Part shown: positions 4,698 through 50,710 of the stretch, one piece after another
How positions within the stretch are numbered: the stretch's first letter is position 1
Layout of the letters: each line of letters opens with the position of its first letter
From: Candidatus Aminicenantota bacterium
GTDB taxonomy: Bacteria > Acidobacteriota > Aminicenantia > JAMOAD01
Assembly (NCBI GenBank): GCA_027061995.1
Contig: JAMOUT010000057.1
Span: 82,298 to 146,297, forward strand
DNA length: 64,000 nt
Reading direction: 5' to 3'
Made by a program: the position numbers and the translations under genes
The notes under the pieces: model-generated
Told to the model about the DNA's origin: nothing
The model's input: the letters and a program-made list of their open reading frames with translations, nothing else
Database searches by the model: none

Positions 4698-6128
4698 TTA
4701 TAATTGGGTTTTAAAAACAAAAATATGTTTTATTAGATTTCGAGGAATGATTACTATTGTTTCTCCATTTTCTATGGTTGATTTAAGCTTTTCACCCGAT
4801 AGTGTTCTGAATATCGAGTTTGCGGGAAATATTTTTTTAAGAGAGATTCTTTTTGTATTATTATTATCGGGAAAATGAAATATATGGACAGTATCAGCTT
4901 TTTTATTGAATCTTATATTCCCGAAACCATATATTTTAAAAGTTGTTGTTCCATAAATAGCTTCTCCGTTAATTTTAAGCCATTCACCAATCTCCTTCAG
5001 TATTTTGTAAGCTTCGGGATCCCAATCACCTTCGGGTGAGGGAGCGATATTTAAAAGGAGATTTCCCCCTTTTGATACTATATCAATAAGCATTCGGATA
5101 ATTTGCTCTGATGATTTATATATCGGTTTTTTAACAAAAGACCAACTTTGAGACATAGGAATACAGGATTCCCAAGGGTAGGGAATAATATTCTCGGGGA
5201 CAGTATTTTCTGGAGTCAGATAATTTTGATTCTTCCCTTCGACAGATCTGTCAACAACTATCATATCTGGCTGTTTTTCTCTGATTCTATCAACTAATTC
5301 ATCCATCTTTATATCTTGTGATACTATTCTGTGCTTAATAAAGCCTGTTTTTGATTCTTTGGCTTTTTCTTTATAAAAGTTTTCAATATCCTGTTTTGAA
5401 CTCTTTGCAACCCAGCCACCGTCAAGCCATATAATATCAATCTTTCCGTAATTACTCACAAGCTCCATAATCTGATTATGGGTAAATCTGACAAATTTAT
5501 TCCAAAGCGACGGATAAGTAGCGGGATCATAATTCACATTCCTATCGAACGGTGGGAAAGAGGGGTTCCAATAGTATTCTGAGTGCCAATCGGGTTTTGA
5601 AAAATAAGCACCCACCCAAAGCCCCTTCTTCCTGAAACTATTAAAAATCTCTTTTGTTATATCGGCTCTTTTATTTTTACCGAAGGGGCAATCTTTAGCC
5701 GTTATCTTATAATCAGTGTATTTTGTATCAAACATGCAAAATCCGTCATGGTGTTTTGTGGTAAAGATAAGGTATTTCATGCCCGCCTGTTTCGCAGCTT
5801 TTGCCCATTTGTCGGGATTAAATTTCACAGGATTAAAACTGTTTTTAAGAGATTCATACTCCTTTTTGTATTTGAAATAGTTTTCGGGATTTTTGCCGGT
5901 TGTTCTTTTACACCATTCATAATCTTCGGGAACAAGGGACCAAGATTCCACTATTCCCCACTGACTGTATATGCCCCAGTGCATCAAAAGACCGAATTTC
6001 AGATTTTGCCATTTTTTGATTTTTTCTCTTACGAGAGGGTTTGAATCTGTGATATATCTATATTGTTTTGCATAAGATACGATTAAAACAGATAAAAAAA
6101 TAAGGATGATGAAATATTTTTTTTTCAT
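4698..6128 (-). CDS. Secreted alpha-L-fucosidase, GH29
   Basis: 476 residues with an N-terminal signal peptide (MKKKYFIILIFLSVLIVSYA), so it acts outside the cytoplasm, releasing alpha-L-fucose from glycans. GH29 hallmarks include WQNLKFGLLMHWGIYS, TTKHHDGFCMFDTKY and the nucleophile Asp (about residue 236) in IIWLDGGW; a GGNLLLNIAPSPEGDW motif follows. The acid/base residue is poorly conserved in the family and I do not assign it. The length suits a catalytic domain plus a short C-terminal beta domain. It is transcribed alone, with a strong promoter abutting its start codon and no Shine-Dalgarno. Confidence 0.9.
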   Translation of the reverse strand: MKKKYFIILIFLSVLIVSYAKQYRYITDSNPLVREKIKKWQNLKFGLLMHWGIYSQWGIVESWSLVPEDYEWCKRTTGKNPENYFKYKKEYESLKNSFNPVKFNPDKWAKAAKQAGMKYLIFTTKHHDGFCMFDTKYTDYKITAKDCPFGKNKRADITKEIFNSFRKKGLWVGAYFSKPDWHSEYYWNPSFPPFDRNVNYDPATYPSLWNKFVRFTHNQIMELVSNYGKIDIIWLDGGWVAKSSKQDIENFYKEKAKESKTGFIKHRIVSQDIKMDELVDRIREKQPDMIVVDRSVEGKNQNYLTPENTVPENIIPYPWESCIPMSQSWSFVKKPIYKSSEQIIRMLIDIVSKGGNLLLNIAPSPEGDWDPEAYKILKEIGEWLKINGEAIYGTTTFKIYGFGNIRFNKKADTVHIFHFPDNNNTKRISLKKIFPANSIFRTLSGEKLKSTIENGETIVIIPRNLIKHIFVFKTQL

Positions 6129-6134
6129 TAAATG

Positions 6135-6163
6135 ATAATAGCCTTGAAACCTTGTTTTGTCAA
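6135..6163 (-). promoter_or_regulatory. Promoter for GH29 gene, predicted leaderless
   Basis: Minus strand TTGACA, 17-nt spacer, TATTAT, then six bases and the ATG. The predicted +1 (6128) is the A of the start codon. Confidence 0.7.
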
Positions 6164-6510
6164 GGAGTTTACAGATAAAAAAAGCGCTTGCTTGGAATGG
6201 ACGGAAGAGAAAAGGGGGAAAGCAAGGGGTGTTGTATATCTCTTTATAAATTTCTATTGCTGTATATATAGGGAAGTTTATTTTGTGTGAATCTTTTCAT
6301 GTCGTCATCTTGTATTTTATTAATCCTGTTTTTTTTATTATTCGATTTTTATAATAAAAACTCTAAAGTCTCGGCCTGTAAAAATTATAAATTGCAAATG
6401 GATATTATCGGAGCAAAAAATAAGCGGTAAAATCTTCCGATTTTATGCATCTTATGCCGATTTATTGACATATTACTGATAAAAAGTCCCATGAATACTT
6501 AATTATAGAA

Positions 6511-6526
6511 TGGCATAATATTTGAT
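6511..6526 (+). promoter_or_regulatory. Sigma-54-like promoter candidate before flgF
   Basis: TGGCATAATATTTGAT has the -24/-12 spacing of sigma-54 promoters and matches TGGCA, the purine at position 7 and TTG. It deviates at the -12 C (A here). The predicted start, about 6536, would leave a 15-nt leader holding just the AAGGAGG site. Many bacteria place middle flagellar genes under sigma-54, but this match is imperfect. Confidence 0.35.
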
Positions 6527-6551
6527 AATTAATTTTAATAAGGAGGTTTAT

Positions 6552-7304
6552 ATGTGGAATGGATATTATACCGCGGCATCGGGAATGCTTTCAACGATAA
6601 GACAACTTGATATTGTTTCAAATAATCTTGCCAATATATCAACCTCGGCTTATAAAAAGGATAAGATGAGTATTGAAACGATTAAGTTTAAAAACCCTTC
6701 AGCCCAATCCGATAGTTTTGATGAAATCCTGAATAATCAGGCAAGAATAGCCGGAGTATCGATTGATTTTGAGCCCGGTTCCATAAAAACCACGACAAGA
6801 GAGCTTGATATAGCTCTTCTGAATCCCAAAGGTTTTTTTGCAGTTAAAACTGAAAACGGGATAAGATATACGAGAGACGGAGAATTTTATATCAATGATA
6901 AAGGGGTGCTGACAAATAAAAACGGATACATTGTTATGTCAAAATCGGATAAACCGATAAAAATAATCGGAACTAATAATAAAGTTAGTTTTAGTGAAAA
7001 AGGGGATGTTTATATAGGTGAAAATCTTATCTCCACGCTGAAAATCGTTGATTTTAAAAACAGAGTGAATTTGAGAAAAGAGGGTAAATCTTTGTTTGTC
7101 TATAATGGTAAAAAAAATGAGATATTTGAGGTGAAAGATCCTCAAGTGAGAACCGGAGCTCTTGAAAGATCCAATGTATCAATTGCAGATGCAATGGTGG
7201 ATATGATAAAAATAACAAGGATGTATGAATTTCAGCAAAGAGTGATGGACACAATTTTGACTGATATTGCCAAAAAAACAACGGATGAAGTTGGAAAACC
7301 ATAA
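6552..7304 (+). CDS. flgF: Flagellar basal-body rod protein FlgF
   Basis: 250 residues. Starts MWNGYYTAASGM and continues with the SNNLANISTSAYKK motif shared by all rod and hook proteins; ends with the MVDMIKITRMYEFQQ helix. FlgF is a proximal rod component in the periplasm, exported by the flagellar type III system. I take the ATG at 6552, preceded by AAGGAGG, rather than the in-frame ATG at 6522, which has no ribosome site and would add residues before the conserved N-terminus. It is first of a long co-directional flagellar operon and next to flgG, which is what separates flgF from other rod paralogues. Confidence 0.9.
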   Translation: MWNGYYTAASGMLSTIRQLDIVSNNLANISTSAYKKDKMSIETIKFKNPSAQSDSFDEILNNQARIAGVSIDFEPGSIKTTTRELDIALLNPKGFFAVKTENGIRYTRDGEFYINDKGVLTNKNGYIVMSKSDKPIKIIGTNNKVSFSEKGDVYIGENLISTLKIVDFKNRVNLRKEGKSLFVYNGKKNEIFEVKDPQVRTGALERSNVSIADAMVDMIKITRMYEFQQRVMDTILTDIAKKTTDEVGKP

Positions 7305-7319
7305 ATATAGGAGGAAAGA

Positions 7320-8108
7320 ATGTTAAGAAGTTTATTTTCGGCGGCTTCCGGAATGCAAGCACAAGCTTTGAATATTGATGTTATCTCCCATAATCTTGCA
7401 AATGTTAATACTGTTGGTTTTAAAAAATCAAGAACTGAGTTTGAAGATTTATTATATAATACTGTCAGAGAGCCGGGGGCAAAATCAACGATAAACACTG
7501 AGATTCCAACCGGAATTCAGGTTGGTCTCGGTTCGAGAATAATAGGTGTAAACAGAGTTTTTTCCCAAGGGAATTTTAAAAGAACGGGAAATGCTCTTGA
7601 TCTTGTTATAGAGGGGGACGGTTTTTTTCAAGTTACACTCCCCGATGGCTCAATAGCTTATACAAGAAGCGGAAATTTTTCAAAAGATTCGACCGGAAGG
7701 GTTGTTACCCCCGAAGGATATCCTCTTGAACCTCCTTTGAATATACCTGCTGATGCCATAAGTGTTACTATCGGAAATGACGGAACTGTTTCTGTTATAA
7801 GTGCGGGCTCGAATACAGCCACTGAGATAGGAACCATTCAACTTGCAAAATTTATTAATCCGGCGGGTTTAAAAAGCATAGGTAAAAATATGTATACTCA
7901 AACAACATCATCGGGGGATCCTATTTTGGGAACACCCGGACTTGAAGGTTTCGGAACTTTGGCACAAGGCTTTCAGGAACTTTCAAATGTTGATATTGTC
8001 GAAGAGCTTGTTGAGATGATTATAGCTCAAAGAGCTTATGAGACAAATGCAAGATCGATTAGAACGGCGGATGAGATGCTTAACAGAGCGATAAATCTCG
8101 GAAGGTAA
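7320..8108 (+). CDS. flgG: Flagellar distal rod protein FlgG
   Basis: 262 residues, the standard length for FlgG. The N-terminal [11 protein letters not shown] and [17 protein letters not shown], a central domain, and the C-terminal [19 protein letters not shown] and [10 protein letters not shown] are textbook. It forms the distal rod, the drive shaft passing through the P and L rings. It lies 15 nt after flgF with its own AGGAGG site, and immediately before flgA. Confidence 0.95.
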
Positions 8109-8111
8109 ATA

Positions 8112-9047
8112 ATGAGATTTAAAACATTGTTTTTTATTTTTATTTTTTTAATCTCCGTGGTTTTACTGAATTCTCGGGTTATGGTTCAACTTCACAGTAA
8201 AGCTGTAATCAAATCCGATATTATATATATGAAAGATATTGCCTCCATTTATTCAAACTACAGTAATCTTAAGGATAAAGTGGAAAAAATAATTATCTCG
8301 AAAGGGAAAAGTATTGATAGTGTTGATAGAAAAACAATTTATATGAAACTTATCAATAACGGGATAAACGGATTTAAAGTTGTTGGTGCAAAACAAGTTG
8401 AAATATTAAAAGGGAAAAAGAGAGTATCTAATTCTTTAATGAAAAAAAAGATAGAAAATTATATAAGATCTCGGTTCGGTTATGCTTCCGATATTAAAAT
8501 AATATATCAGAAAATCCCCGATATAAAACTTCCTTCGGGAGGTAAAATAGTTTTGCAAAGATATGGAAAAGGGTTTTCAAACTCCTATCTTCTGAAAGTG
8601 CTGTTAATTAAAAACGGTAAGATTATAAAACAGGATTTTGCACAAGTATATGTGAAAATTTGGGCGAAAATTCCTGTTGCGACTAAATTTATCCGAAGGG
8701 GGAAGATATTAACGAGTAGTGATTTCAGATGGGAAATCAGGGAGATTAATTATGGAAATTATGATTTTGCTGGAAATTCATCCCAAATAATAGGTAAAAA
8801 AGCTCTTTATTCCATAGGCTCGGGAAATGTTATAAGAAACAAGGTATTAAGTAACAAAATATCTGTAAAAAGAGGTGAAATTATAAGAATAATGGTTAGA
8901 ATGAATGGTATTAGCATATCTACCATAGGAAAAGCTTTAACTTCAGGTATTAAAGGACAGATGATTAAAGTTGTAAATCTGAAATCAAAGAAAAAACTTG
9001 AAGGTAAAGTTATAGGGGAAAATCTTGTGGAGGTATTCGTATTATGA
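8112..9047 (+). CDS. flgA: Flagellar P-ring assembly chaperone FlgA
   Basis: 311 residues, somewhat longer than the usual 220-240 because of an extended N-terminal region. A signal peptide (residues 1-22) directs it to the periplasm. The C-terminal SAF-type domain is visible: VPVATKFIRRGKILTSSDF-like region, then GKKALYSIGSGNVIRNKVL and the final strand GKVIGENLVEVFVL. FlgA binds FlgI subunits and helps them polymerise into the P ring. It sits between flgG and flgH/flgI and overlaps flgH by 4 nt. Sequence similarity is modest; order and the SAF domain carry the call. Confidence 0.8.
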   Translation: MRFKTLFFIFIFLISVVLLNSRVMVQLHSKAVIKSDIIYMKDIASIYSNYSNLKDKVEKIIISKGKSIDSVDRKTIYMKLINNGINGFKVVGAKQVEILKGKKRVSNSLMKKKIENYIRSRFGYASDIKIIYQKIPDIKLPSGGKIVLQRYGKGFSNSYLLKVLLIKNGKIIKQDFAQVYVKIWAKIPVATKFIRRGKILTSSDFRWEIREINYGNYDFAGNSSQIIGKKALYSIGSGNVIRNKVLSNKISVKRGEIIRIMVRMNGISISTIGKALTSGIKGQMIKVVNLKSKKKLEGKVIGENLVEVFVL

Positions 9048-37154: not shown

Positions 37155-38285
37155 ATGAGAAAAGGATTAACAATTATTTTGGTTGTATTTTTTGTTTTAG
37201 CAAGTCTTTCTAATGGTAATAATCTGAAAAAAGAAAATCTCCGACTTGGTTATAAGGAGATAAAAGTTGAAATTAATGAGAATATTGAGACATTAAGCTT
37301 GATATATAGCCTTGCTGATGATGAGTTGATTAATGTTGATTTTGCCGAAAAAGCTCATCTGCTAAAACATTATTTAAAAGAGTTTGAAAAATTTAAAGAT
37401 CATCCAGCGGTTAAAAAAATGAAATTTCTTCTGAAAAAGGAGATATTTGGTGCTTCATGTGTTACATACGGACTTTTTTATACTGATTTCCCCGAATTTA
37501 AAGAAAAATATCCTTTTGATTTTTCAGTTTATAAAAAAGAGGAAAAAAATCAATTATTGGAGTTTTATCAATTAGCCAGAAAATTTTATAAAGATGTGAA
37601 ATTATCAAAATTTTTTATAAAACACCATACAGTATATGAAAGAATAAAAAATGAAGTAAAATCCGTTTTACCTTCGAACTCTTATATAAAAACATTGGAA
37701 AAATTTCACGGAATATCAATGTTAGATTATGTAATAATTCCTTCGATTTTTGTTCCTAATTATTTTAATTACGGACCAACCATAAAAACCCGAAAAGGGA
37801 TTATCAATTATTATGTGATGGGTCCCGCTTACGATGTAAATATTAAATCCGGAGTGAAATTACCGGACAAATTGGGTTTTAATGCCAAGAGTTATATTTT
37901 TTCAATCGGAATACATGAATTCGGGCATACTTTTGTTAGATTTATTGATAAACCGAAAAATGCACGACTTATAAATTCCATATCGTATTTAAATACGGAA
38001 GAATTAAGAAAAAAGATTTACCCTCAAGGATATGGTAATTGGAAAGGGGTTTTTGAGGAACATCTTGTAAGAGTTTGTGAGATAGAGATAGCAAAAATGA
38101 TGAACAACGAAAAATATAGCAAAATATTATATGAAGATAATGTAATCAAAAGAGGGTTTAAATATATTCCGTATATTCTTGATATAATCCCCCAATATGA
38201 AAAAAACAGAGACAAATATAAAACTTTTGAAGAATTTTTTCCATTAATTATAAAAAAGTTATCCGAGGTTAAAATTAAAAGATAA
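37155..38285 (+). CDS. Exported DUF4932-like zinc metalloprotease
   Basis: 376 residues with a signal peptide (MRKGLTIILVVFFVLASLSNG). A zinc-binding HExxH is present in IGIHEFGHTFVRF (about residue 255), followed by the helix FEEHLVRVCEIEIAKMM, which could supply the third ligand. Overall organisation resembles DUF4932 proteins, mostly known from Bacteroidota, of unknown function. AAAGGAG precedes the ATG. It stands alone at the edge of an AT-rich accessory patch. The protease call rests on the motif only. Confidence 0.65.
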   Translation: MRKGLTIILVVFFVLASLSNGNNLKKENLRLGYKEIKVEINENIETLSLIYSLADDELINVDFAEKAHLLKHYLKEFEKFKDHPAVKKMKFLLKKEIFGASCVTYGLFYTDFPEFKEKYPFDFSVYKKEEKNQLLEFYQLARKFYKDVKLSKFFIKHHTVYERIKNEVKSVLPSNSYIKTLEKFHGISMLDYVIIPSIFVPNYFNYGPTIKTRKGIINYYVMGPAYDVNIKSGVKLPDKLGFNAKSYIFSIGIHEFGHTFVRFIDKPKNARLINSISYLNTEELRKKIYPQGYGNWKGVFEEHLVRVCEIEIAKMMNNEKYSKILYEDNVIKRGFKYIPYILDIIPQYEKNRDKYKTFEEFFPLIIKKLSEVKIKR

Positions 38286-38310: not shown

Positions 38311-38535
38311 TTAATTATAGTATATTGTAAATTTGCATTTTTCAATATTAATCTCAATTTTTTTTATCTCTGTTAACAAGACATTCAGATATAAAATATC
38401 ATATTCTCCCTCAGTATTAGTGTCGATATGTTTAACTTTTTCAATTGAGATTATTATATCGGAAGTCATTATTTTGTAGGAATTATTATATATAAATACT
38501 AATAAAATAATAATATATATACTATGTTTTTTCAT
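38311..38535 (-). pseudogene. Decayed paralogue of the small exported protein at 40818
   Basis: The 74 codons match the 138-residue protein encoded at 40818-41234 from the first residue (MKK-S-IIILL-F-YN) through SIE-VK--DTN--G-YDI-YLNV-LTE. They then jump from residue 66 directly to the equivalent of residue 117 (KFTIYYN) and stop 14 residues early. So it has an in-frame loss of about 150 bp plus a premature stop. The Cys after the leader (NKC in the intact copy) is replaced (NNS), and the D-x-N-x-D-G loop has degenerated. A duplicated and shrunken copy is the simplest reading; a functional mini-version is possible. Confidence 0.7.
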
Positions 38536-38653: not shown

Positions 38654-38839
38654 TTAATCTATATTCTTTTTTAATAATTCGGAAGCTATTTTTTTTATTT
38701 TGTTGACATTATCCGCCGAATCTTCTATTGTAGCTGCTTCCTTCTTTGTGATTTTGCTCTTTTCTGCTAATTTTATTCGGCCCTCAAGCCCTAATTCATT
38801 CTCAACTATCTTAAAAATTGATAATATCTTATCGCCCAT
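38654..38839 (-). CDS. Small helical protein, third gene of the roadblock operon
   Basis: 61 residues, not recognised. It is predicted to be helical with two amphipathic stretches (ILSIFKIVENELGLEGRIKL and IEDSADNVNKIKKIASELLK); the middle reads AEKSKITKKEAATIED. No signal peptide. GGAGGAATAAT precedes the ATG. It lies 19 nt after the roadblock gene in the same direction, so it is probably part of the same operon and may be a partner peptide. Function unknown. Confidence 0.65.
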   Translation of the reverse strand: MGDKILSIFKIVENELGLEGRIKLAEKSKITKKEAATIEDSADNVNKIKKIASELLKKNID

Positions 38840-38858
38840 ATTATTCCTCCGTTTAAGG

Positions 38859-39233
38859 TTAATTACCTACAATAGCTTCTTCAAAAGCAGATGTTATCTT
38901 AGGTAAAATAATGCTTAAAAGCATTCCCAAAGGAACCTCTCTTGTATCAATCACCATACCCCATTGAAATTCACCAAGTGGCATAACTATTAGTGCTTTG
39001 TCGTCAACAAGGTCTAATAAATAATATTTATTCAAAGCCGGAAACTTTGCTCCGTCAAGAGCTTTTTTAACATATTCCGTAATTTTACCGAATAAGGCGC
39101 AACCTTCGGGGCTACTGTTATAAGCGACAATAGGTTGTAAATCTTTTGATGAATAGATATCAGTTCCAATTAACCCTTGACCTGTCTCTTTTTTCAAGAG
39201 CTCCATTGCTTCTTTTAGCTTTTTTACATTCAT
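38859..39233 (-). CDS. Stand-alone roadblock/LC7-like protein
   Basis: 124 residues, one alpha/beta domain resembling the roadblock/LC7 fold: helix, central sheet (ALIVMPLGEFQWGMVIDTRE) and C-terminal helix (LGMLLSIILPKITSAFEEAI). Its last 50 residues match the C-terminus of the neighbouring receiver protein (both have WGM/LGM-x-ID and LG-xLL/FL-x-IILPKIT). Roadblock proteins such as MglB regulate small Ras-like GTPases, but no GTPase gene is in the window. GGAGGAAAAA precedes the ATG. Confidence 0.7.
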   Translation of the reverse strand: MNVKKLKEAMELLKKETGQGLIGTDIYSSKDLQPIVAYNSSPEGCALFGKITEYVKKALDGAKFPALNKYYLLDLVDDKALIVMPLGEFQWGMVIDTREVPLGMLLSIILPKITSAFEEAIVGN

Positions 39234-39242
39234 TTTTTCCTC

Positions 39243-40310
39243 CTATGATTTAAGATTTTTTATTTTTATTTCCTTTGTAATTTTCGGAAGTATGATATTT
39301 AAAAATAAGCCGAGTTGAATTTTTGAAATATCTATGGTCATTCCTAATAAATAATTATTGATAGGAGAAATGATTATTATTATGAATTTTCCGGAATTAA
39401 TCAAATAATAATCTCCCAAATGAGTATCCAAATATTTTGATAATTCTTTGTTAATCAATGAAGTTAATGATGAAAAATCCTTATAAGAGCCCTCGTCTAT
39501 ATTATATTGAAAGATAGAGGAGTTGTCTGATAATGATATTAATTCGGCATTAATTATGGAATCATCTAAATCATCTTTAAATTTTTCAAAGAATTCATGA
39601 AAAACTTTTGTATCTGAATTATTATTGTTACTATTATTATTATTGTTGTTTTCATCTATTTTTCTTACAGTTTCCAAAATACCGAATTCAATAGGAATTG
39701 AAACATCATCGTTTTCCTCTATATAGGGTGTTTCCGTAAAAATATAATCATCTAATTTCTGAATTTCTTCCAATGCTTCCAATCCTTCCAATTTGCCGAA
39801 TTTACATTTTTTTAAAAATCCGTTTTTAACATTGATGATTCCATTTCCTTTTTTGGATTTTATTGATATTGAAGTTTTCTTATTGGAATATTTTAAAATT
39901 TGTAGTAATGTCATTATGTCAATGTTAATTTGTGCTATATTATTTTCTTTGTTTTTTAATGATTTCTCGATTAAATTCTCCAACCTGTCTATTGAGAATG
40001 GTTTTTCAAGAAGGTATTGTATTCCGAGAGATAAAAGCTCTTTATTATACATCATAGAGGGGAATCCCGTTATAACAATGAATTTTTTACCGGGGAATTT
40101 TTTCAGAACTTCTCTTATAAATTGAATACCATCCATTTCAGGCATATTGATATCTACTATGAATAAATCGATTTTTTTGATATTAATGCTTTTTAATGCT
40201 TTTAAAGGTGAATTAAATATTATTATTTCATAACGATTATTTAAACTGTCTTTAAGAAGTTTTAACAAATTTTTGTCATCATCTAAAATTAAGATATTCT
40301 TTTTTTTCAT
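39243..40310 (-). CDS. Receiver-PATAN(DUF4388)-roadblock protein
   Basis: 355 residues from MKKKNILILDDDKN. Residues 1-120 are a response-regulator receiver (DDD acidic pocket, phospho-acceptor in FIVDINMPEMDG, Thr in VITGF, Lys in LEKPFS). Residues about 128-225 look like a DUF4388/PATAN domain (IDIMTLLQILKYSNKKTSIS, GIINVKNGFLKKCKFG, LEGLEALEEI). After an Asn-rich linker, the C-terminal ~110 residues are roadblock-like, paralogous to the next gene. There is no DNA-binding domain, so output is by protein contact. The start at 40310 is chosen because upstream codons precede the promoter. Confidence 0.75.
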   Translation of the reverse strand: MKKKNILILDDDKNLLKLLKDSLNNRYEIIIFNSPLKALKSINIKKIDLFIVDINMPEMDGIQFIREVLKKFPGKKFIVITGFPSMMYNKELLSLGIQYLLEKPFSIDRLENLIEKSLKNKENNIAQINIDIMTLLQILKYSNKKTSISIKSKKGNGIINVKNGFLKKCKFGKLEGLEALEEIQKLDDYIFTETPYIEENDDVSIPIEFGILETVRKIDENNNNNNSNNNNSDTKVFHEFFEKFKDDLDDSIINAELISLSDNSSIFQYNIDEGSYKDFSSLTSLINKELSKYLDTHLGDYYLINSGKFIIIIISPINNYLLGMTIDISKIQLGLFLNIILPKITKEIKIKNLKS

Positions 40311-40322
40311 AATTCTTTTGCC

Positions 40323-40361
40323 ATAACAACTTATGTTATAAAAACTAATTCTTTTTGTCAA
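40323..40361 (-). promoter_or_regulatory. Promoter with dyad for the receiver-PATAN-roadblock operon
   Basis: Minus strand TTGACA (40356-40361), 17-nt spacer, TAACAT (40333-40338). An inverted repeat ATAACA-N5-TGTTAT (40323-40339) overlaps the -10 and predicted start, and could be an operator. The leader is about 16 nt with no strong Shine-Dalgarno. Confidence 0.55.
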
Positions 40362-40817: not shown

Positions 40818-41234
40818 TCAAATTTTTATCTTTTTTGAATTCTTATAAGATTTTCCGTTTGAATTATAGTATATTGTAAATTTATATTTTGATGATTTTC
40901 TATTATTATATCTAAGGTTAATTTTTATATTTGTAAAAGTATAAAGCCCGAAACCTGTAATTTTATAAACGGGAGGATTGTTCTCCGCATATTTGTAAAT
41001 AAGTGTATCATTAGAATCATATACCTCATTCATATATTGTTCGATATTAAGATCAAGACCTTTTGTTTCTGTTAACATGACATTCAAATATATAATATCA
41101 TAGCGACCATCACCGTTCGTATCAACATATTTAACTCTTTCAATTGAGATAAGGAGGTCGGGAGTTGTTTTCTTATCACACTTATTGTATAAAAACATTA
41201 ACAAGATAATAATAAATACACTATATTTTTTCAT
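40818..41234 (-). CDS. Small exported protein with a D-x-N-x-D-G loop
   Basis: 138 residues, not recognised. It has an N-terminal hydrophobic leader with a Cys right after it (FLYNKCDKK); the lipobox is not canonical, so lipoprotein status is uncertain. Residues 37-46 read VDTNGDGRYD, a dockerin-like calcium-binding loop. The C-terminal half looks like a small beta-sandwich (FTNIKINLRYNNRKSS, YKFTIYYNSNGKSY). Its mRNA is predicted leaderless. A shortened copy lies 2.3 kb away at 38311. Confidence 0.6.
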   Translation of the reverse strand: MKKYSVFIIILLMFLYNKCDKKTTPDLLISIERVKYVDTNGDGRYDIIYLNVMLTETKGLDLNIEQYMNEVYDSNDTLIYKYAENNPPVYKITGFGLYTFTNIKINLRYNNRKSSKYKFTIYYNSNGKSYKNSKKIKI

Positions 41235-46585: not shown

Positions 46586-48241
46586 TTGATAAAAAACATT
46601 AAAATCCGAAATCTTGCTATTATTGATGAATTAAACATAAATTTTGGAAAGGGGTTAAATATATTGACAGGTGAAACAGGAGCGGGAAAATCAATTATAT
46701 TGGATAGTATTAGATTTGTTGGTGGAGAAAGGGCTGATAGAACATTATTAAGAAACGGAGAAAAAAGGATGGTTGTTGAAGCTGTATTTGAATTTCAAAA
46801 AGAAATTAAAGAGCTTGAAGAATATTTTGAAGATTCGGAAGACAGAAAAGAGATAATTGTTCGAAGAGAATATTTTGAAGACGGAAGAAATAAAATATTT
46901 ATTAATAATATGAGTTTTAAACTATCGTTTTTGAGAGAATTATCAAAACGGTTTTTTAATATATACGGTCAAAATGATCATAGGTATCTCTTAAACATAG
47001 AGAATCAACTGGAATATCTTGATGAGGTTGGTAATAATGCTGAATTATTGGCTGAAACAGAGGGAATAAGTAAAAAAATAATTTCTTTGGGAAAACAGAT
47101 TAAAGAACTTGAAGACAAGGAGCGAGAGAAAACTCAAAGGGAAGCATATCTTAAATATGTTATATCGGAGATAGAAGAGATAGGTTTACGGGAAGGGTTG
47201 GAAAAAGAACTTCTTGAAAAAAGAGTTGTTTTCAGAGATTCCGAATTAATATTTAATACTATTAAGAGAACCCTGCAATATCTTTATGATGAAGATGATT
47301 CAATTTTAAATAAAATCTCGGAAATAGAAAATAATTTTGAAATACTCTCAAAATATAAAAAAGAGTGGGAAGAGTATTATGGTAAAATAACGGAGTTTAG
47401 AATATCTTCGGAGGAAGTATCATATCAACTAAGAGATTTTATCGGAAATTATGAATTTTCACCCGAAGAATCGGATGAGATTGAAAAAACACTGTCAAAG
47501 ATTGAGAATTTAAAGAAAAAACATGGAGAATCGGAAAAAGAGATTCTTGATGTTTATGAAAAGTCAAAAAAAGAGTTAGAACTTTTGGATAATATTGATA
47601 TTGAAAAAGATGAATTATTATTATTAGTTGGTAAGCTTAAGAAAGAATATGATGAGATTTCCGGCAAATTAACCGAAAAAAGAAAAGAAATCGCTTTGGA
47701 CATAGAGAAAAAAGTGATAAACGAGCTTAAAACTCTCGGTATGAAAAATCCTTCCTTTAAAATTAAGTTCTTTGAAAATAAGGATAATTTCTCACCGAAA
47801 GGTAAAGAATATATTGAATTTTATTTTTCCGCTAATCCGGGGGAAACTGTAAAACCTCTCTCTAAGGTTGCTTCGGGGGGTGAACTTTCAAGGATAATGT
47901 TATCACTAAAACTATTGTCTGTCGAAAAGAATTACAAAACTTTTATTTTTGATGAGATTGATAGCGGAGTAGGGGGAGAGACCGCTGAAAAACTCGGAGA
48001 AAAATTAAAACAATTGTCCGAAAAAGCGCAGGTGCTTTGTATTACACATTTTCCTCAGGTGGCTTCTTTTGCTGATAATCATTTTAAGGTTGATAAACGG
48101 GAGGATAATAAGAGAACCTTTGCGAAGATAAAGGAACTGAAGGATAAAGAAAAGGTTAAAGAGATTGCAAGGATGATGTCGGGAACAAATATTACAGAAA
48201 ATTCATTAAAAAGTGCCGAAGAATTGATTAACAGGAATTAA
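46586..48241 (+). CDS. recN: DNA repair protein RecN
   Basis: 551 residues starting with TTG (MIKNIKIRNLAIIDELNINF). SMC-like ATPase: Walker A in LTGETGAGKSI, central coiled coils, signature VASGGELSRIMLSLKLL, Walker B in FIFDEIDSGVGGETAEKLG, and the C-terminal LCITHFPQVASFADNHF. RecN acts early in double-strand break repair. The TTG start and absence of a ribosome site suggest translation coupled to the subtilase gene one base upstream. Confidence 0.95.
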   Translation: MIKNIKIRNLAIIDELNINFGKGLNILTGETGAGKSIILDSIRFVGGERADRTLLRNGEKRMVVEAVFEFQKEIKELEEYFEDSEDRKEIIVRREYFEDGRNKIFINNMSFKLSFLRELSKRFFNIYGQNDHRYLLNIENQLEYLDEVGNNAELLAETEGISKKIISLGKQIKELEDKEREKTQREAYLKYVISEIEEIGLREGLEKELLEKRVVFRDSELIFNTIKRTLQYLYDEDDSILNKISEIENNFEILSKYKKEWEEYYGKITEFRISSEEVSYQLRDFIGNYEFSPEESDEIEKTLSKIENLKKKHGESEKEILDVYEKSKKELELLDNIDIEKDELLLLVGKLKKEYDEISGKLTEKRKEIALDIEKKVINELKTLGMKNPSFKIKFFENKDNFSPKGKEYIEFYFSANPGETVKPLSKVASGGELSRIMLSLKLLSVEKNYKTFIFDEIDSGVGGETAEKLGEKLKQLSEKAQVLCITHFPQVASFADNHFKVDKREDNKRTFAKIKELKDKEKVKEIARMMSGTNITENSLKSAEELINRN

Positions 48242-48242
48242 A

Positions 48243-49541
48243 ATGAAATATTTTATAAAAACTTACGGATGTCAAATGAATATAAATGATTCTGAAAAGA
48301 TGGGGGGGATTCTGGTTAAAAAAGGGTATATTCCGACAGATAAAGAGGAAGAAGCCGATATATTTATTATTAATACTTGTTCTGTCAGAGAAAAAGCGAA
48401 AGAAAAACTTTTTTCATATCTCGGAAGATTAAAAAAGTTCAAACAAAAAAAAGGGGTAAAAATAATTGTAGCAGGTTGTGTTTCACAGCTTGAAAAGGAT
48501 AATATAAAAAAGAGGGCTCCTTATGTTGATATTTTAATAGGAACAAATTCCTATTTTAAATTAAAAGATGTAATGGATAAAAGAGATTATAGTGATTTCC
48601 AGTTTTACAGGGATTGGAAAGAGATTGACAGTCAACCTGTCCGAAGGCAAAATTTTTCCGCATATATAACAATTATGGAAGGGTGTGATAGTTTTTGCAC
48701 CTATTGCGTTGTTCCATTTTCAAGAGGAAGAGAGAGATCAAGGCCCATGAGTTATATACTAAAAGAGGTGGAAAAATTAGAAAAGGAAGGATACAAGGAG
48801 ATTCAATTACTCGGACAAAATGTTGATGCTTATGTTGATCCCGAGACAGGGGGGAGACTTGATAAACTGTTGGAAAAAATAGCTGTGAACAGTAAGATTC
48901 CATGGGTAAGATTTCTTACATCTCATCCGGCTAAATTTTCAATTGATATTGTGAAAATAATGAAAGATTATCGTTCTATTTTAAGAGCGATTCATATCCC
49001 TTTTCAAGCGGGTGGAGATAAAGTATTAAAGTTAATGAACAGGGGCTATACGAGAGGGGAATATCTGAAACTTATGGATTCTATAAAAAAGATTATTCCT
49101 GATATCGCTTTATCAACCGATATTATTGTGGGGTTTCCGGGAGAAACTAATAAGGATTTTGAGAAAACAGTGGAAATATTAAAATATGTTGAGTATGAAA
49201 ATATATTTTCTTTTAAATATTCTCCCCGTCCTGGAACAAAAGCTTTTAATTATGATGATAATATTCCCGATAAGGAAAAGACCGAAAGATTGATAATGAT
49301 TCAAGAATTACAAAAAAATATTCAACTAAAAAATAACAGAAAAAAGATAGGAAAAATATTTAAAATTTTAACCGAGGTGAAAAACAGAAGAGATGAAAGC
49401 CAGCTTGTGGGGAGGATAGAGAGCGGGAGAATAGTTAATGTGAAAGGGGCGGATAAAATCGGGGAGTTTTATGATGTTTTGATAGAGGGTGTAGGCCCTC
49501 ATAATTTAAAAGGGAAAGTTGTAAATAAAAAGGGGGGTTAA
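48243..49541 (+). CDS. miaB: tRNA-2-methylthio-N6-dimethylallyladenosine synthase MiaB
   Basis: 432 residues, a radical-SAM methylthiotransferase. N-terminal UPF0004 domain with three cluster cysteines (TYGCQMNIND, NTCSVREKA, AGCVSQ), the radical-SAM CxxxCxxC in EGCDSFCTYCVVPFSRGRER, and a C-terminal TRAM domain. SRGRE(R)SR and the overall form match MiaB rather than MtaB or RimO. It adds the methylthio group to i6A37 of tRNA. It begins one base after recN and overlaps glf (TAATG). Confidence 0.93.
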   Translation: MKYFIKTYGCQMNINDSEKMGGILVKKGYIPTDKEEEADIFIINTCSVREKAKEKLFSYLGRLKKFKQKKGVKIIVAGCVSQLEKDNIKKRAPYVDILIGTNSYFKLKDVMDKRDYSDFQFYRDWKEIDSQPVRRQNFSAYITIMEGCDSFCTYCVVPFSRGRERSRPMSYILKEVEKLEKEGYKEIQLLGQNVDAYVDPETGGRLDKLLEKIAVNSKIPWVRFLTSHPAKFSIDIVKIMKDYRSILRAIHIPFQAGGDKVLKLMNRGYTRGEYLKLMDSIKKIIPDIALSTDIIVGFPGETNKDFEKTVEILKYVEYENIFSFKYSPRPGTKAFNYDDNIPDKEKTERLIMIQELQKNIQLKNNRKKIGKIFKILTEVKNRRDESQLVGRIESGRIVNVKGADKIGEFYDVLIEGVGPHNLKGKVVNKKGG

Positions 49542-50710
49542 TGGATATACCGAAATTCGTAGTAATAGGCGGAGGGTTTTCAGGAGCTGTTTTTGCCGAG
49601 AGAGTTGCGGAAATGTTAAATGAACAAATTCTTATTGTGGAAAAAAGAGAGCATATCGGGGGAAATTCTTATGATTATAAAAGTGAAGAGGGGATTTTTG
49701 TTCATAAATACGGACCCCATATATTTCATACTGATTATGATATTGTTTGGGATTATCTTTTAAACTTTTCATCATTTAATAATTATAAACATAAAGTTCT
49801 CGCTTATATTGACGGTAAATACATTAAACTTCCGTTTGATTTTCAAGGGATTGAAGAATTTTTTAAAGAGAGAAAGGAGAAAATAAAAGAGAGACTTTTG
49901 GAGAATTATAAAATATCAGATAAAGTTCCCATTTATGAATTACTTAATTCCAAGGATAAACTTCTCAAAGAGATAGGGGAATTTGTTTATAATAAAATTT
50001 TCTTAAATTATTCAATAAAACAATGGGGTGAAAACCCTTTGAATTTATCAAAAGAGATTTTAAAAAGGGTTCCCGTATATATAGGCATAAAAGACGGTTA
50101 TTTTGAAAACAGATATGAGGGGATTCCCGAAAAAGGTTTTATAAATATCTTTAATAATATGCTTAAAAATGAAAATATTGGGATAAAATTAAAAACAGAT
50201 GTAAAAGAGTTTTTTTATCTGAAAGACGGAATGATTTACACAAAGGACAATAAAGTATTTGACGGGTATTTTATTTATACGGGACCTATTGATTATCTTT
50301 TTGATTATAAATTCGGAAAACTTCCTTACAGATCATTAAAATTCGATTTTCAGAAAATTGATAAAGAATATTATCAGAAAGCCGCAGTTGTAAATTATCC
50401 TAATGATTATGATTTTACGAGAATAACCGAATATAAACATTTTATAGAGATTAAAACTTCAAAAACAATCATTTCAAAAGAGTTTCCCGGAGAATATGAT
50501 GAAAACAATAAAGAATTCAATATCCCGTATTATCCCATTTTAAAAGAAGAAAACATTAATATACTGAGCAAATATCTTAATGAATCGAAAAAATATAAAA
50601 AATTATATCTGATAGGGAGACTTGCCGAATATAAGTATTATAATATGGATGAAGTAATCCTAAGTGCTTTGAATCTTTATAATAAGGAATTTGAAGATAA
50701 AAATAAATAA
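49541..50710 (+). CDS. glf: UDP-galactopyranose mutase
   Basis: 389 residues. FAD motif VVIGGGFSGAVFAERVA, then LIVEKREHIGGNSYDYKSEE, KYGPHIFHTDYDIVWDYL, the region LNYSIKQWGENPLNL (W of the substrate site), RVPVYIGIKDGYFENRYEGI, and the C-terminal YLIGRLAEYKYYNMDEVI. It converts UDP-galactopyranose to UDP-galactofuranose, a precursor for surface glycans. Its ATG overlaps the miaB stop. No galactofuranosyl transferase is adjacent. Confidence 0.95.
   Translation: MDIPKFVVIGGGFSGAVFAERVAEMLNEQILIVEKREHIGGNSYDYKSEEGIFVHKYGPHIFHTDYDIVWDYLLNFSSFNNYKHKVLAYIDGKYIKLPFDFQGIEEFFKERKEKIKERLLENYKISDKVPIYELLNSKDKLLKEIGEFVYNKIFLNYSIKQWGENPLNLSKEILKRVPVYIGIKDGYFENRYEGIPEKGFINIFNNMLKNENIGIKLKTDVKEFFYLKDGMIYTKDNKVFDGYFIYTGPIDYLFDYKFGKLPYRSLKFDFQKIDKEYYQKAAVVNYPNDYDFTRITEYKHFIEIKTSKTIISKEFPGEYDENNKEFNIPYYPILKEENINILSKYLNESKKYKKLYLIGRLAEYKYYNMDEVILSALNLYNKEFEDKNK

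Follow-up and report, generated by a model that had tools for sequence, protein, structure and literature searches.

A receiver-PATAN-roadblock regulator, a free roadblock protein and a conserved small partner: a putative kinase-gated roadblock module in Candidatus Aminicenantes

We describe a three-gene module in a Candidatus Aminicenantes genome, at 38654-40310 on the minus strand of the window (the whole 64-kb stretch of DNA that was analysed), which our evidence supports as a roadblock assembly under kinase control that has a small partner of its own. It encodes a response regulator with a roadblock domain of its own (P0003), a free roadblock protein (P0001) and a 61-aa protein (P0002). 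Judging from sequence and genomic context, we tentatively propose that phosphorylation gates the action of this assembly on the MglA/MglB switch, its putative target in this organism.

Results and Discussion

Operon structure and promoter

The three open reading frames reported in an earlier, sequence-only reading of this DNA are all present on the minus strand, tightly spaced and ordered from the promoter as the 355-aa response regulator (P0003, 39243..40310), the 124-aa P0001 (38859..39233) and the 61-aa P0002 (38654..38839). Relative to the nearest named relative (JAMOVU010000161, in which P0001 is 93% identical), dN/dS is about 0.09 for P0003, about 0.04 for P0001 and about 0.11 for P0002, so purifying selection acts on all three. 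A sigma-70-type promoter is predicted upstream (TTGACA-17-TAACAT, 40333..40361, minus strand), the core of which is kept in that relative. The inverted repeat over the -10, which had been singled out as a feature of this promoter, fared less well; its arms measure 6 bp, an equally good repeat occurs in 28% of shuffled 120-mers, and it is absent from the aligned upstream region of the nearest relative even though the promoter core survives there. A repeat of this quality is to be expected by chance. No RNA families were detected around the module at threshold, and a search for intrinsic terminators at the module found none.

Two copies of a small protein predicted to be exported flank the module, both in the same orientation, one full (138 aa, 40818-41234, minus strand) and one shortened (74 aa, 38311-38535, minus strand), with 75% DNA identity over 216 bases. 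The module locus of the relative contains no homologue of this protein, and the copies could be the mark of an insertion or of a rearranged duplication. A DUF4932 protein (37155-38285, plus strand; Pfam E 1e-37) also adjoins the module.

A roadblock family beyond the reach of sequence models

The roadblock fold claimed for P0001 from its sequence is borne out by structure prediction. An AlphaFold model built on an alignment of 58 sequences has a pLDDT of 95.7, and its best Foldseek matches in the PDB are Ragulator and Asgard roadblocks (E about 6e-6) and MglB (4e-5), the range being about 6e-6 to 1e-4. Z scores to these three groups lie between 13 and 16, reaching 16.1 for Asgard Roadblock3 (rmsd 1.9 over 116 residues) and 15.4 for the MglB of Myxococcus xanthus (rmsd 1.7 over 115 residues), which places P0001 within the roadblock/LC7 fold. 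At the level of sequence, the Pfam model Robl_LC7 (PF03259) matches none of the 58 family members, even at E 1, and a profile comparison of the family with MglB is weak (E 0.0014, score 25.7 against at most 15.3 in controls). Searches of Pfam, NCBIfam, PHROGs and PDB sequences with P0001 and P0002 returned no convincing known family; a glutamine synthetase match in the search with the two families (E 0.012) was weak and judged to be chance. A tree that grouped P0001 with roadblocks linked to mglBA had support (88/38) too poor to use.

The shared fold might invite the simpler view that the roadblock proteins are extra MglB-type GAP subunits, or orphan MglBs, and that the rest of the module is incidental; there are precedents for MglB homologues that stand alone as orphans and for fusions of receiver with roadblock (PMC4316618). 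We regard this as very improbable, however, given that the P0001 family escapes the Robl_LC7 model entirely, has no acidic C-terminus like that of MglB, coexists with true MglB, even in one operon, and is accompanied by a conserved 61-aa partner.

Domain architecture of the response regulator

Read from its ATG, P0003 comprises a receiver (aa 3-120, 39951..40304), a PATAN/DUF4388 region (aa about 130-221, 39648..39923) and a roadblock domain (aa about 231-354, 39249..39620), all on the minus strand. The receiver is recognised by Pfam (Response_reg, E 1.1e-20); in the AlphaFold model of the whole protein (pLDDT 82) this part has a Z of about 20 against receivers, and the matches listed in a fold search with the entire model were all receivers. 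The phosphorylation site is complete (D10, D11, D53, T81 and K103), so that the receiver has its acidic pocket, the Asp that accepts the phosphoryl group, and the Thr and Lys, and the residues of this site are conserved in 17 of 17 aligned regulators (with D or E at position 10), while they are lost in tandem paralogues. Second tandem copies of the receiver-PATAN-roadblock gene occur at five loci (L069, L072, L083, L086 and L088); in these the receiver has lost its Thr and in most cases its Lys as well, giving them the look of pseudo-receivers, and each has its own small partner.

The middle part of P0003 scores below the curated Pfam cut-off for DUF4388 (PF14332; E 0.002, 18.6 bits against 25), a family that corresponds to the PATAN domain. 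Because homologues of P0003 match DUF4388 at 49-70 bits in the same region, we take this part to be PATAN/DUF4388, so that homology upholds the PATAN-like domain that had been claimed for the regulator. The C-terminal part is modelled with the element order alpha-beta-beta-alpha-beta-beta-beta-alpha, which is that of a roadblock, and is homologous to P0001 (about 30% identity, E 1.7e-11); the common ending that had been noticed in the two domains is real (LGLFLNIILPKIT / LGMLLSIILPKIT). In the tree this domain sits on a long branch (length 2.2), indicating strong divergence, and P0001 lies near the family consensus. A heterodimer of the two is probable because the fused copy has diverged far and the free copy has kept the consensus; MP1/p14 is an asymmetric roadblock pair of this sort. 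The diverged domain of P0003 could also form a homodimer, or be inactive.

Recurrence of the module in other bacteria

The sequence-only reading would have failed had the three genes never been together elsewhere; they do recur as a set, in several bacterial phyla. We compared 43 loci, the window included, and the small partner is present in 28 of them. Several loci carry tandem duplications in the order roadblock-small-roadblock-small. At about 15 of the 43, a PAS-HisKA-HATPase kinase and an NtrC-type regulator adjoin the fused gene, which is consistent with two-component input; no histidine kinase lies near the module in the window.

Behind the roadblock-small pair, four loci (L064 at 5566-8146, L071, L076 and L080) and in part a fifth (L050) share a conserved row of genes for a 173-aa protein, an unknown protein of 206-211 aa, a cysteine-desulfurase-like aminotransferase and a protein of roughly 100 aa; the 173-aa protein has a weak V4R match in its L071 copy.

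A conserved small partner

The third protein had been described as an unrecognised helical product of 61 aa, and this stands insofar as no known family was found for it; it nevertheless belongs to a conserved family, one with a profile resembling XRE helix-turn-helix domains. The family alignment contains 35 sequences, to which I8, G17, R21, D40 and A52 are common. Among 60 Aminicenantes genomes there are 22 copies in 14 genomes, and each of the 22 has a roadblock gene of the P0001 family no more than 1.5 kb away, 21 of them lying directly behind it. By these comparisons P0002 is a real conserved family, previously undescribed.

The strictness of this pairing can also be read in another way, which forms the main rival to our proposal: P0002 would be a minimal XRE-type DNA-binding protein that a phospho-gated roadblock dimer holds or delivers to promoters, with no need of MglA. 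When the family profile was aligned by hhalign with HTH_3 (XRE domains of related genomes), a match over 50 columns scored 20.9 (E 7e-4) and was stable across six subsets; no score exceeded 14.7 in 76 controls made by shuffling or reversal, or 12.6 in 14 other families. The same method gives an E of 0.0014 for the relation of roadblock to MglB, which structure confirms. The module is also found in several genomes without MglA/MglB, as this reading would allow. Against it, the hhalign probability is only 26%, a Pfam search of the family gave no helix-turn-helix over cut-off, the family ranges in pI from 4.7 to 10.2 and so is not uniformly basic, and the promoter repeat, which was the candidate P0002 site, is not conserved. 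We consider that P0002 is suggestive of a minimal XRE-type helix-turn-helix, which falls short of proof, and that a transcriptional switch of this kind is somewhat unlikely, although it could operate alongside an action on MglA/MglB.

Linkage with the MglA/MglB switch

The 64-kb window contains no GTPase near the module. The sequence-only reading had imagined a distant GTPase as a possible target, and a search of the genome does yield a candidate: a single mglB-mglA pair on another contig (G000:C100:40026-41120), unlinked to the module, so that P0001 is not encoded next to mglA as an MglB would be. The MglB of this pair matches the NCBIfam model for Thermus-type MglB at E 1e-16, which is under the cut-off of the model.

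Among the homologous loci, three (one from Aminicenantes and two labelled deltaproteobacterial) have the module in an operon with a separate MglB and an MglA-type GTPase. In a Syntrophales MAG (L082) the genes run on one strand as roadblock, small, PATAN-roadblock, small, MglB, MglA, and the order is similar in a Deltaproteobacteria MAG (L087); in another family of Aminicenantes (L033) the roadblock gene is immediately followed by genes for a Robl-like and an unknown protein, and these by genes for MglB and an MglA-like GTPase. The GTPases of L082, L087 and our own genome have in common the MglA-type stretch YTVPGQV.Y...R.L.LKGVDG. The distribution is also nested, a Robl_LC7/MglB protein being encoded in 18 of 18 Aminicenantes genomes with the module and in 17 of the 42 that lack it; counted by genus, the figures are 8 of 8 and 6 of 19 (Fisher p 0.0014, uncorrected for phylogeny). 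In one family (f3), a single genome carries the module; MglB occurs in this genome and in no other of the family, and both are in one operon. Because of the operon linkage in three loci and this nested distribution, MglA/MglB is the best-supported target.

MglA is not an obligate partner of the module everywhere, since among the 17 carrier MAGs outside Aminicenantes (completeness not given) MglA/MglB was missing in ten; the other seven have MglA, and the same seven have Robl_LC7. Two related WOR-3 MAGs both lack MglA/MglB. It also counts against a role in the MglA/MglB switch that some copies of the module adjoin unrelated genes, encoding a V4R-like and a cysteine-desulfurase-like protein.

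A WOR-3 locus bears on a further possibility, reasoned by analogy: that the receiver-PATAN part might bind a pilus motor ATPase directly, while the roadblock parts would serve only in dimerisation or localisation. At this locus the module comes after pilin-like genes (N_methyl and a weak PilX), in a genome where a search for MglA found none. Pilus or secretion-type motor ATPases are encoded in our own genome, and in cyanobacteria type IV pili are a target of response regulators with PATAN, PixE acting on PilB1 (PMC7690835). Such motor ATPases are nearly universal, however, no pilus cluster recurs next to the module in relatives, and the PATAN domain is weakly conserved in P0003, all of which makes direct control of the motor distinctly unlikely. 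The window genes at 46586-50710, the sizes of which suggested a pilus operon, are RecN-like, MiaB-like and UDP-galactopyranose mutase genes by Pfam.

Comparison with known systems

The structural features of the module have counterparts in several described systems. In the MglA/MglB/RomR polarity module of M. xanthus, roadblock and receiver proteins likewise surround a Ras-like GTPase, and the fold of MglB matches that of P0001; here, by contrast, one protein combines receiver, PATAN and roadblock, and it is joined by a free roadblock and a 61-aa partner; the roadblock family falls outside Robl_LC7, and the GTPase gene lies elsewhere in the genome. Ragulator/LAMTOR and the Asgard roadblocks resemble P0001 in fold and are its best Foldseek and Z matches, but P0001 is only 10-18% identical to them and occurs in a bacterial two-component context.

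The same sorts of domain combination and neighbourhood have been reported before, namely fusions of receiver with roadblock, PATAN genes in the vicinity of mglA and ties between MglA systems and two-component signalling (Wuichet and Sogaard-Andersen 2014, PMC4316618). That survey began from MglB BLASTP and Robl_LC7 domains, which miss the P0001 family, and its available text describes neither this family nor the small partner. It also covers the actinobacterial conservons (CvnA-D), which unite a sensor kinase, an MglB-type roadblock, an extra protein and a Ras-like GTPase in one system. Unlike conservons, the present module has a real response regulator, a different extra protein and a GTPase that is mostly unlinked, and the window genes and domain searches do not reveal an operon that brings together a kinase, an MglB-type roadblock, a CvnC-type protein and a GTPase. 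The cyanobacterial regulators PixE, PixG and LsiR share with P0003 the combination of receiver and PATAN without a DNA-binding output; a roadblock domain or small partner is not mentioned for them in the available text of PMC7690835. Our literature search (mostly open-access, with a few subscription papers, and including DUF4388) found no description of the P0001 roadblock family or its small partner.

A proposed mechanism and its implications

In our model, the P0003, P0001 and P0002 genes would form a single operon, and their products a roadblock assembly gated by phosphorylation. A histidine kinase, adjoining in many relatives and unlinked here, would phosphorylate Asp53 of the P0003 receiver; the roadblock domains of P0003 and P0001 would dimerise, probably together; and P0002 would be the dedicated partner of this roadblock unit, presumably binding it directly. 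Phosphorylation would alter the assembly such that it acts on the MglA/MglB Ras-like switch and, through this, on polarity or type IV pili. Given its recurrence across phyla and the operons that it sometimes shares with MglA and MglB, the module probably connects environmental signals with a switch for cell polarity or surface motility. A more elaborate version, which we think unlikely, would have the two-component regulator control an asymmetric dimer of roadblocks to which a minimal helix-turn-helix protein is bound, so that kinase input, MglA/MglB and gene expression meet in one assembly; such a module, present in several bacterial phyla, would have escaped notice because Pfam has no model for either the roadblock family or the small protein.

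This study brings to light a roadblock family that goes undetected by sequence models, in bacteria for which metagenomes are almost the sole source of knowledge, and a conserved small partner that is absent from Pfam, NCBIfam, PHROGs and PDB sequences. The L082 and L087 operons place the module and the MglA/MglB switch side by side, where their relationship can be tested in vitro. If the module acts on MglA, it would let a histidine kinase signal directly to a Ras-like switch in bacteria, and if P0002 is a DNA-binding helix-turn-helix, roadblock proteins would have a transcriptional output too.
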